DNA of 64,000 bases from Salinarchaeum sp. Harcht-Bsk1 (GTDB lineage: Archaea > Halobacteriota > Halobacteria > Halobacteriales > Salinarchaeaceae): NCBI RefSeq assembly GCF_000403645.1, contig NC_021313.1:1879014-1943013 (forward strand), read 5' to 3'. Numbering within the stretch: position 1 is the first letter of the stretch; the number at the start of each line of letters is the position of its first letter. Position numbers and translations under genes: made by a program. Of this stretch, positions 32,254-63,710 are shown one piece after another. The notes under the pieces were generated by a model that had not been told where the DNA came from, searched no databases, and was given only the letters and a program-made list of their open reading frames with translations.

Positions 32254-32338
32254 TTTTTGGTCCAGATTTTTGGAGGAGGGTTCCCGCAGGTCGATCTTTG
32301 ATCGACCGAGGAAACCCTCCTCGAAAAAAGGTGGGTTA
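32254..32338 (-). terminator. 3' element (copy A) downstream of the Cmi4-like gene: T-run, stem-loops, A-rich tail
   Basis: Read on the minus strand from the stop codon: TAA, CACCTTTTTTC, a 10-bp stem GAGGAGGGTT/AACCCTCCTC enclosing an apical stem GGTCGATC-AAA-GATCGACC, then AAAAATCTGGACCAAAAA. The T-run 8 nt after the stop is a normal archaeal terminator. The rest is shared with the element that follows phoU at 63490, with the apical stem changed but still paired. It could be a structured 3' UTR or processed RNA. Confidence 0.65.
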
Positions 32339-32941
32339 GAACGACACGTCCGTCTCCATCCCTTCTGTCGCGTCGTCGAGACCGTCCTGCCTGGCCTCCT
32401 GCGTGAGGGGGCCGGCCAGATCGGCGTCGCCGAGGATGGAGTCGAACTCGTCGCGATAGCGGTCGTTCGCACGGCGCGATTCGTCCTGGGCCTCGACCAC
32501 GCGGCGATAGCGCCGGACGGTCGACTCGCTGACGTCGAACTCGTCGGCGAGATCACTCGTGGCGACGTCCTCGCCGCCGCTGGTAACGCGCTTGCGGAAC
32601 GCCTCGACGTCGAAGGGCGCGTCGAGGTCGCGCTCGCGCACGAGGTGGAGGTCGAGACGAGCGCGGAAGACGGTACGTCGTTCGACGTCGAGTTCGCGGG
32701 CGAGGTCGGCGTCGCTCGCGCCGTCGTAGAAGCTCACGGCGAGCTCGCAGAGCTGACCGTCGGTCAGCTCGGTCTCGAAGTCGTACCGGTCGCGCATCTC
32801 GGCGACGAGGTCGGCGAGGCGCTCTCGTGCCGCCTCGTCGTCGGTGAGGGACCCCTTGGTGGCGGCCTGGGACTCGGTGACGGTGTCGGAGTCCGTGACG
32901 TCCATGAAGATGTCGCGGAGCTCCTCCGTTTTCTCGTCCAT
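32336..32941 (-). CDS. Conditioned medium-induced protein 4-like regulator (two HTH segments)
   Basis: 201 aa, acidic, no cysteine. It opens MDEKTEELRDIFMDVTDSDTVTESQ, which I associate with the haloarchaeal family annotated 'conditioned medium-induced protein 4'; the name is from memory and the mechanism is unknown. Two helix-turn-helix-like segments are visible: GASDADLARELDVERRTVFRARLDL (about 73-97) and VATSDLADEFDVSESTVRRYRRVVEAQ (about 125-151). That suggests a DNA-binding regulator. A TATA box (ACATATAC on the minus strand, 32971-32978) lies about 30 nt upstream, with repeated GGCAGA motifs above it. Confidence 0.8.
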   Translation of the reverse strand: MDEKTEELRDIFMDVTDSDTVTESQAATKGSLTDDEAARERLADLVAEMRDRYDFETELTDGQLCELAVSFYDGASDADLARELDVERRTVFRARLDLHLVRERDLDAPFDVEAFRKRVTSGGEDVATSDLADEFDVSESTVRRYRRVVEAQDESRRANDRYRDEFDSILGDADLAGPLTQEARQDGLDDATEGMETDVSF

Positions 32942-50455: not shown

Positions 50456-52681
50456 ATGAACGAAGTCCAACTCGAAGTTGCGAAGGCCTACCCCAACGAC
50501 TCGGGGCGAGGCATCGCCCGGCTGGATCCGGACACGCTGCTCCACCTGAAGCTCTCCCCCGGCGACATCATCGAGATCGAGGGGGCTAACTCCACGGCGG
50601 CGAAGGTCTGGCGCGCCGACCGCCAGGACTGGAACACCGACACCGTCCGCATCGACGGGTTCACCCGCCAGAACGCCGACGTCGGGATCGGCGAGCGCGT
50701 CGAGATCCGGAAGGCCGAAGCGACGAAGGCCGACTCGCTCGTGCTCGCGCCGCCCGAGGAGGCGTCGGTGCAGTTCGGCTCCGACGCCGCGGGCATGGTC
50801 AAGCGGCAGATCCTCAAGCGCCCGGTCGTCGAGCGCGACATCGTCCCGGTGATGTCCTCGACGAACCACCCGTTCATGCGCTCGCCGGGGCAGGCGATCC
50901 CGCTGATCGCCGTCGAGACCGAGCCCGAGGGCGTCGTCCTCGTCACGGAGGACACCGACGTCGAACTCCGCGAGGAGCCCATCTCCGGGTTCGAGAAGAC
51001 CGGCGGCGGCATCACCTACGAGGACATCGGCGGCCTCTCCGGCGAGATCCAGCGCGTCCGCGAGATGGTCGAACTGCCGATGAAGCACCCGCAGATCTTC
51101 AAGAAGCTGGGGATCGAGCCGCCACAGGGCGTCCTGCTCCACGGCCCGCCCGGGACTGGCAAGACCCTCCTGGCGAAAGCCGTCGCCAACGAGACCTCCG
51201 CCTCCTTCTTCTCTATCGCGGGGCCGGAGATCATCTCGAAGTACTACGGGGAGAGCGAGCAACAGCTCAGGGAGATCTTCGAGGACGCGACCGAGGAGTC
51301 GCCGTCGATCATCTTCATCGACGAGCTCGACTCCATCGCGCCCAAACGGGAGGACGTCACCGGCGAGGTGGAGCGCCGGGTCGTCGCCCAGCTACTGACG
51401 ATGATGGACGGCCTCGAATCGCGGGGCCAGGTCATCGTCATCGCGGCGACGAACCGCGTCGACTCCGTCGATCCCGCGCTCCGGCGGCCGGGCCGGTTCG
51501 ACCGCGAGATCGAGATCGGCGTCCCCGATGAGACGGGCCGCGAGGAGATCCTCCAGATCCACACTCGCGGCATGCCCCTCTCCGACGACGTCGACCTCGG
51601 TCACCTCGCCGACGAGACCCACGGCTTCGTCGGCGCCGACATCGAGAGTCTGACGAAGGAGGCAGCGATGAAGGCCCTGCGGCGCTACCTCCCCGAGATC
51701 GACCTCGACGAGGAGGACATCCCGCCGAGCCTCATCGACCGGATGATCGTCAAGCGGGACGACTTCCGGGGCGCGCTCGCGGAGGTCGAGCCCTCCGCGA
51801 TGCGGGAGGTGCTCGTCGAGTTACCGAAGGTGTCCTGGGACGACGTCGGCGGCCTCGAGGAGGCGAAACGCGACATCAAGGAGTCCGTCGAGTGGCCGAT
51901 GCGCGACCCCGAGCGGTTCACCCGCATGGGAATCGAGCCGCCGAAGGGCATCCTGCTCTACGGCCCGCCCGGCACCGGGAAGACGCTGATGGCGAAGGCC
52001 GTCGCCAACGAGACGAACGCGAACTTCATCTCGGTGCGGGGCCCGCAACTGCTCTCGAAGTGGGTCGGCGAGTCGGAGAAGGCGATCCGTCAGACGTTCC
52101 GAAAGGCCCGGCAGGTCGCTCCGACCGTCATCTTCTTCGACGAACTCGACTCCCTGGCGCCGAACCGGAGCCAGGAGATGGGCAGTAACGTCTCCGAGCG
52201 GGTCGTCAACCAGCTCCTGACCGAACTCGACGGGCTCGAGGAGATGGAGCACGTCATGGTCATCGGCGCGACCAACCGGCCGGACATGATCGACCCCGCG
52301 CTCATCCGCTCGGGCCGCTTCGACCGCCTCGTGATGGTCGGCCAGCCCGACCAGGAGGGCCGCGAGCAGATCCTCCGGATCCACACCGACGACACGCCGC
52401 TGGCCGCGGACGTCAGTCTCCGCGAGATCGCCGAGCGCTCCGACGGCTACGTCGGCTCCGACCTCGAGACGATCGCCCGGGAGGCCGCCATCGAGGCGCT
52501 CCGGGACGACGACGACGCCGAGGAGGTCCAGATGAAGCACTTCCGGGCCGGCATGGAGTCCGTCCGCCCGACGATCACCGAGGACCTGCTGGAGTACTAC
52601 GACTCCGTCGAGGAGGAGTTCCGCGGCGGCAGCGCGGAGCCCGGCAGAGGGCGGCGCGGGAGTCGGATCGGGTTCCAGTGA
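50456..52681 (+). CDS. cdc48: Cdc48/VCP-like AAA ATPase
   Basis: 741 aa, type II AAA protein. The N domain (1-about 190) has the double-psi-barrel start [28 protein letters not shown]. Ring D1: Walker A GPPGTGKT at about 230-237, Walker [15 protein letters not shown], Arg finger [16 protein letters not shown]. Ring D2: Walker A at about 503-510, [14 protein letters not shown] and [15 protein letters not shown]. It forms a hexameric unfoldase, probably feeding the proteasome or remodelling complexes. The acidic C-terminal tail lacks the eukaryotic HbYX-like end. No adaptor genes adjacent. Confidence 0.96.
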
Positions 52682-62811: not shown

Positions 62812-63492
62812 ATGGCACGGAAGGATTACCAGCAGAAACTCGACGATCTCCGGGACGACGTACTGTACATGAGCGAGCTCGTCCTCGAACGGCTACGCGA
62901 CGGCCTCGACGCACTCGACCGCAAGGACGAGGATCTCGCTCGGGACGTCATCGAGGGCGACCACGAGATCAACCAGCTCTACCTCGACCTCGAACAGGAC
63001 TGCATCGACCTGCTGGCCCTCCAGCAGCCCGTCGCCGGCGATCTCCGCTTCATCGCCTCGTCGTTCAAGATCATCACCGATCTCGAACGGATCGGCGACC
63101 TCGCGACCAACCTCGCTGGCTACGCCGAGGACGCCGAACAGGATCGCTATCCAGACGTCGACATCCAGTCCATCGGGGATCAGGTCATCCAGATGATCGA
63201 GGACACGATGACCGCCTTTGCCCAGGAAGACGTCGAGGCCTGTCGCGAGATCTCCGCCCGCGACGACGACATCGACGCGCTCTGTGAGCGCGCTAGCCAG
63301 ACCGTCGTCCGCGACCTCATCGAGCGCGAGGTCGGCCCCGACGCTCCCCAGTCGGAGATCGAGGGCATCATGCAGGACGTCTCCCGGCTCCTCCTGACGA
63401 TCCGCGACCTCGAACGCGTGGGCGACCACGCCGTCAACATCGCCGCACGGACGCTCTACATGGTCGAGAGCGACGACGAGCTCATCTACTAG
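62812..63492 (+). CDS. phoU: Phosphate signalling protein PhoU
   Basis: 226 aa with two PhoU helical repeats (about 8-100 and 110-220), including DLERIGDLATNLAGYAED and RDLERVGDHAVNIAARTLYMVESDDELIY, the E/DxxxD metal motifs. It attenuates Pst import and phosphate signalling. A CTATACCC box about 30 nt upstream suggests an own promoter in addition to readthrough from pstB. Its stop codon is the first base block of the conserved 3' element. Confidence 0.95.
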   Translation: MARKDYQQKLDDLRDDVLYMSELVLERLRDGLDALDRKDEDLARDVIEGDHEINQLYLDLEQDCIDLLALQQPVAGDLRFIASSFKIITDLERIGDLATNLAGYAEDAEQDRYPDVDIQSIGDQVIQMIEDTMTAFAQEDVEACREISARDDDIDALCERASQTVVRDLIEREVGPDAPQSEIEGIMQDVSRLLLTIRDLERVGDHAVNIAARTLYMVESDDELIY

Positions 63493-63568
63493 CACCTTTT
63501 TTCTCGTCGGGTGTCCTCGCGCCTCCGGCGCTGCGGGCACCACTCCTCGAAAAAATCTGCACCAAAAA
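63490..63568 (+). terminator. 3' element (copy B) downstream of phoU
   Basis: From the TAG stop: CACCTTTTTTC (T6 at 63497-63502), GGGTGTCCTCG, an apical stem GCGCC-TCC-GGCGC, TGCGGG, ACCACTCCTC, then AAAAATCTGCACCAAAAA. The order and sequence match copy A at 32254-32338. The outer stem is weaker here (GGTG/CACC only). The T-run makes it a plausible transcription terminator; the conserved downstream part suggests a further role. Confidence 0.65.
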
Positions 63569-63572
63569 CGCC

Positions 63573-63618
63573 GCGGGAGCGGAGCTCCCGCGAGCCCTCG
63601 TTCGCTTCGCTCACGAGG
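63573..63618. repeat. GAGC-core hairpin (copy d) and TCGCTTCGCTC-loop hairpin (copy 2)
   Basis: GCGGGAGC / GCTCCCGC (63573-63580, 63584-63591, loop GGA) immediately follows the phoU 3' element. At 63596-63618 the arms CCTCGT/ACGAGG enclose TCGCTTCGCTC, matching the hairpin at 22988 with compensating stem changes. The two hairpin types occur together at both loci. Confidence 0.6.
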
Positions 63619-63710
63619 AAGGCGCGGACTCGTCGCTTCGCTCCTCGCCCGCGTGAACCGCTCGATCCCTGTTGTCGCTCGCGGATGCTGGAGGCGGGTA
63701 TCCTTCGGAG

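Follow-up and report, generated by a model that had tools for sequence, protein, structure and literature searches.

A covarying, terminator-like element at gene 3' ends of Salinarchaeum sp. Harcht-Bsk1 and other haloarchaea

Bacterial intrinsic terminators that act in both directions are arranged as an A-run, a hairpin and a T-run. In archaea, haloarchaea included, the T-tract is an established stop signal; according to the available text of a study in Haloferax volcanii, termination in a reporter reached 95% with the T-stretch motif of intergenic transcript ends and 59% with an inserted sequence that forms a hairpin (PMC7237163). Here we describe a structured element that occurs twice in a 64-kb stretch of the Salinarchaeum sp. 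Harcht-Bsk1 genome (the window) and has its T-tract just downstream of the gene, the position that defines archaeal T-tract terminators.

Copy 1 (32254..32335, minus strand; sense CCCACCTTTTTTCGAGGAGGGTTTCCTCGGTCGATCAAAGATCGACCTGCGGGAACCCTCCTCCAAAAATCTGGACCAAAAA) lies directly 3' of the TAA codon (32336-32338) that ends the gene of a 201-aa helix-turn-helix (HTH) protein (32336..32941, minus strand), and the start of copy 2 (63491..63568, plus strand; sense AGCACCTTTTTTCTCGTCGGGTGTCCTCGCGCCTCCGGCGCTGCGGGCACCACTCCTCGAAAAAATCTGCACCAAAAA) overlaps the TAG stop codon (63490-63492) of phoU (62812..63492, plus strand; start derived from the 226-aa length of the protein). A preliminary description of the window had placed the two copies at these stop codons, correctly. 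Its phoU label is borne out by TIGR02135, which scores above its cut-off; the name 'Cmi4-like', given to the other gene, could not be confirmed, with matches to HTH domains only and no NCBIfam name. Both copies carry CCTTTTTT, the T-run, in the 5' arm (32323..32330, minus strand; 63495..63502, plus strand), a candidate transcription stop judged by its sequence and by the fold, in which the run of copy 1 has an A-run partner. Past the hairpin, each copy ends in a conserved unpaired A5 (32254..32258, minus strand; 63564..63568, plus strand), which reads T5 on the opposite strand. The predicted RNA folds have energies of -43.1 kcal/mol for copy 1 and -29.5 kcal/mol for copy 2. With filters off, a covariance model (R1) built from nine genomic copies, both window copies included, scored copy 1 at 86.5 bits and copy 2 at 87.7 bits, compared with 10.2 bits for the best unrelated match in the window, and the tail pattern of the element, found twice in the window, appeared in 0 of 100 shuffles. 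The shuffles, this score gap and the estimate for placement at stop codons given below reject chance as an explanation. Further GC-rich inverted repeats adjoin the element at window positions 63569-63660 and 3' of many other copies in this genome, giving a longer composite 3' region.

The element is predicted to fold, in most copies of this genome, as a single long hairpin of about 80 nt (~81 nt). On the sense strand, the stop codon is followed by 0-2 nt, NNA, CC, T5-6, C, a 5-nt loop (with pairing in some copies), GGGTKTCC and TCG; beyond a variable stem-loop come CTGC, GGGMACC, a loop, G, A5-6, TC, TNN, 3 nt and the unpaired A5. Pairs form between the T-run of the 5' arm and the A-run of the 3' arm, between GGGT(T/G)TCC and GGG(A/C)ACC, with T-A/G-C covariation, and between the NNA that precedes the T-run and the TNN that follows the A-run (CCA:TGG, GGA:TCC, GCA:TGC, GTA:TAC, CGA:TCG); in some copies (loci L066 and L098) pairing extends into the stop codon or flanking bases. 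The apical stem of the preliminary description was drawn correctly, but it is only the tip of a hairpin whose other three helices pair as well. Most copies keep an asymmetric core, TTCCTC / TGYGGGA, in which a U-G wobble, a mismatch and a bulge are conserved. In a class-wide alignment collected with the model alone, the wobble is present in 28 of 32 rows, and the T-run and the A-run hardly vary (30-32 of 32 rows).

Covariation was scored in three alignments: 22 hits in the loci of this genome, 65 haloarchaeal copies, for which part of the rows were picked with a pattern that fixes the core, and the 32 class-wide hits. Across the three, pairing holds in 91-93% of cells, as against 44-57% with the partners slid by 1-3 columns, both sides have changed in 16-18 of 27 pairs, and the covariation score was reached by 0 of 500 shuffles; because the alignments were fitted to the model structure and each contains 1-3 antisense or partial rows, these pair counts lean somewhat toward structure. 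The covariation suggested by the two window copies therefore holds in larger samples. Whole-helix shifts with pairing kept are a more direct case for structure than the alignment counts. The copy after mvaD (L077) has, in place of the T-run and the A-run, different arms that are still complementary; in L262, GGG:CCC is flipped to CCC:GGG; and in L281, the core helix reads TCTCC:GGGGA. A simple T-run terminator is rejected as a full account since distant pairs covary, in line with the earlier suggestion that the element is more than that.

By pattern searches and R1, we located ~24 sense copies in the single 3,255,260-base contig of this genome, which disposes of the possibility that only two exist. 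Eighteen of the 24 begin -3 to +2 nt from a protein stop, T-run side first, with a chance probability of ~1e-39 by a rough binomial estimate. The T-run side starts within 3 nt of a stop in 18/24 copies here, 17/23 in a sister species and 15/30 in the class-wide set, and the corresponding counts for the A-run side are 0, 0 and 0; among our 24 copies, no convergent gene stop lies within 40 nt on that side. In the stop-adjacent copies of this genome, T5-6 starts within ~10 nt of the stop, L077 excepted. By gene calls from a home-made ORF heuristic, the downstream neighbours of the 24 copies are convergent in 14 cases and tandem in 10, the latter rejecting an exclusive two-way terminator for convergent genes.

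The hosts are mostly core genes, and such genes would be expected to be highly expressed. They encode EF-2, a thermosome subunit, the proteasome-activating nucleotidase (PAN), transcription factor S (TFS), two glutamine synthetases, RadA, DnaJ, phosphoenolpyruvate carboxylase (PEPC), aconitase, two PhoU-domain proteins, acyl-CoA dehydrogenase, MvaD, a DUF429 protein, a zinc-type alcohol dehydrogenase (by inspection), a CysD-like protein and the HTH protein. Six of the 24 copies have no adjacent protein stop, and five of these have a tRNA gene in the locus: one directly follows tRNA-Pro (L078), and in L079, L080, L082 and L084 the tRNA gene is at some distance or on the opposite strand. The sixth, L083, has neither. 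Since copies directly follow tRNA genes, the element is common to mRNA and stable-RNA genes. The copies after TFS and PAN face each other 1.4 kb apart (contig 2361000-2361082, plus strand; 2362512-2362594, minus strand), and their identical sequence makes recent copying or gene conversion likely. Shorter relatives with the same T-run/A-run frame and without the TTCCTC/TGCGGG core were also seen (L083, L231, L106:2407-2470, L173:3174-3238, L116:5349-5419).

At E<=1e-5, the covariance model matched 76 of 116 haloarchaeal genomes and 33 of 46 genera, with at most 25 matches each; these counts are lower bounds because only some candidates were scored. The prediction that further copies would be found in this genome and in related Halobacteria is borne out. 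In a phylum-wide draw of 60 genomes, 7 of the 10 haloarchaeal genomes matched and none of the 50 others did. A pattern scan of named genomes found the element in Halosimplex, Halobellus, Natronomonas, Haloarcula, Halobaculum, Halorussus, Halobacterium, Halorientalis and others; a few matches in bacteria are probably due to chance. Our close comparisons covered one same-genus genome, the sister species, with 20-27 matches after largely the same genes, and one other genome of the family, with no match. At TFS, the end pair is CCA:TGG here and GGA:TCC in the sister species, different yet compensated. EF-2, DnaJ, CDC48/PAN-type ATPases, PhoU and the HTH gene are hosts in more than one genus; for the HTH gene, relatives with the element immediately 3' of their stop codon come from the sister species, Halobaculum saliterrae and two further genomes of one genus. 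EF-2 genes of most other genera lack it, which rejects conservation after EF-2 across the class and indicates that its presence is patchy and that it is not required there. Three copies lie on haloarchaeal plasmids, one of them directly after an ABC-transporter gene, and a virus-borne origin is rejected as no phage record matches. No Rfam family matched the window or the elements of 24 further loci; a Haloarcula contig (L145:6213-6312) matches the L4-Archaeoglobi ribosomal leader at 78.4 bits.

Several copies bear signs of copying. The outer parts of the element are much alike within a genus, as homogenised types, and three sister-species copies have one nested palindromic insertion in common with outer arms that differ. 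In the sister-species phoU copy (L104:1501-1583), the core is inverted relative to the gene, with the orientation of T-run, A-run and tail kept. To judge by these sequences, the nested insertion and inverted core point to cores having moved from site to site by gene conversion or transposition, and homogenisation with patchy presence may be compatible with a REP-like or mobile origin. Homogenisation, patchiness at orthologous genes and the shared insertion lend partial support to the mobile 3' cassette that the preliminary description held possible. Such signs do not by themselves remove a function, as position, orientation and compensated pairing are kept. Downstream of a cdc48-type ATPase (window ~52320-52680, plus strand) we found, in place of the element, a different GC-rich stretch and a later T-run, and the sister ortholog has the element after its stop; the flanks are too diverged for an empty-site comparison. 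A second palindromic repeat family (GGTTCGAGAGAGCGAAGCTCTCTCG...; L071/L054 at 1406-1430, L229:1943-1967, L232:1663-1687, L160:169-193) occurs downstream of radA here, in the apical loop of sister-species elements and on a Halosimplex contig.

On balance, we think it probable that the element is a structured gene-3'-end module of haloarchaea that defines transcript ends as a T-first terminator. Its structure and position were observed directly, and termination is what we infer from them. A polymerase leaving the gene would meet the T5-6(C) tract first, and polymerases that read through would transcribe a very stable hairpin, pulling the U-tract into a duplex that could complete termination or shield the 3' end from exonucleases. 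Read from the opposite strand, the A-run of the hairpin and the A5 beyond it would be two T-tracts, which could stop transcription arriving from the far side. The order of T-run, hairpin and A-run, the reverse of the bacterial one, is expected if the T-tract does the stopping and not an upstream hairpin. Against this reading, RNA-level selection on the 3' arm would be difficult to account for if most transcripts already ended at the first T-run; moreover, the copy after mvaD lacks the T-run yet keeps a compensated hairpin, and most EF-2 genes of other genera do without the element. The hairpin may act in RNA, by finishing termination or protecting the end, or in DNA, as the sequence fits either. 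A bolder form of the terminator reading is doubtful but conceivable: class-wide T-first terminators whose TTCCTC / TGYGGGA loop would bind a dedicated factor and which would insulate core genes in both directions, a layout undescribed in bacteria or other archaea.

Among other explanations, an element of 3'-UTR stability survives best, although we consider it unlikely. Here the T-run would be read through, the transcript would end past the hairpin, and this structure, conserved internal loop included, would block 3' exonucleases or bind a protein. Selection on both arms and the imperfect core, with its wobble, mismatch and bulge, fit a folded RNA, and core genes would benefit from stable transcripts; yet a T-run that hardly varies is a terminator sequence, an mRNA stabiliser is not needed where the element directly follows a tRNA gene, and the core of the sister-species phoU copy is inverted. 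Less likely again is a REP/BIME-like DNA palindrome spread by copying, for example a site for a topoisomerase or chromatin protein that absorbs supercoils downstream of active genes. An extragenic, palindromic, multi-copy repeat 3' of genes, with homogenised genus-specific types, patchy presence at orthologues and one inverted core, speaks for it; the fixed orientation and register to the stop argue against it, and a double-strand binding site would not usually have arms that covary and so few fixed bases. The genome has no match to the Y1 (RAYT, GTAG-type REP) transposase PF01797, which was matched in control genomes, and a RAYT-driven REP is rejected on that ground. A selfish miniature mobile element with terminators as its insertion sites, its complementarity a product of palindromic copying by template switching and of no host function, is very improbable: the shared nested insertion, the cdc48 difference between the two species and the short mobile repeats of Haloquadratum that target palindromes (PMC3119063) speak for it, but the same genes are hosts in several genera, pairing runs into the stop codon in some copies, palindrome-perfecting copying would erase the conserved mismatches, and no target duplication or clean empty site was seen.

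A terminator of this type bears on how archaeal transcription ends and on whether RNA structure contributes. A family that can be defined by sequence, is found in most sampled haloarchaeal genomes and has a covarying structure provides a test set of natural variants, and the covariance model could annotate transcript ends from sequence alone. Searches of open-access papers found no description of the element. Among described systems, the Short mobile repeats and MITEs of Haloquadratum likewise belong to haloarchaea, are short and palindromic, and carry no transposase gene; their main short-repeat families insert into the palindromes of other mobile elements (PMC3119063), whereas this element sits at core-gene 3' ends and has evolved by compensatory change. 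REP/BIME and CGTC-tagged palindromic repeats are, like it, numerous extragenic palindromes capable of forming hairpins, and with ~24 copies here and 20-27 in the sister species the element is such a multi-copy palindrome; those repeats, however, measure 20-40 bp (PMC3733652), compared with ~81 nt in fixed register at stop codons. No GTAG/CGTC end tag is found at the end of the element, CGTC occurring only inside some copies. The bacterial bidirectional intrinsic terminator shares the palindrome and the matched A- and T-tracts readable on both strands, but the alignments, on inspection, have T-tract, hairpin and A-tract in this order, and the bacterial form lacks the conserved asymmetric core and the extra A5. 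Closest are the Haloferax volcanii terminators, in which, as far as the available text describes them, a T-stretch and then a C follow soon after the gene, some sites with hairpins; these hairpins lie upstream of the stop site, whereas the T-tract here is inside the 5' arm, and the same text reports T-stretches and hairpins with no shared family, in contrast to a family that spans many genes and genera (PMC7237163). By the tests made, this structured, terminator-like 3'-end element falls outside both the REP and the bacterial-terminator families, and most likely it is a kind of transcript-end (terminator) element that had not been catalogued before.
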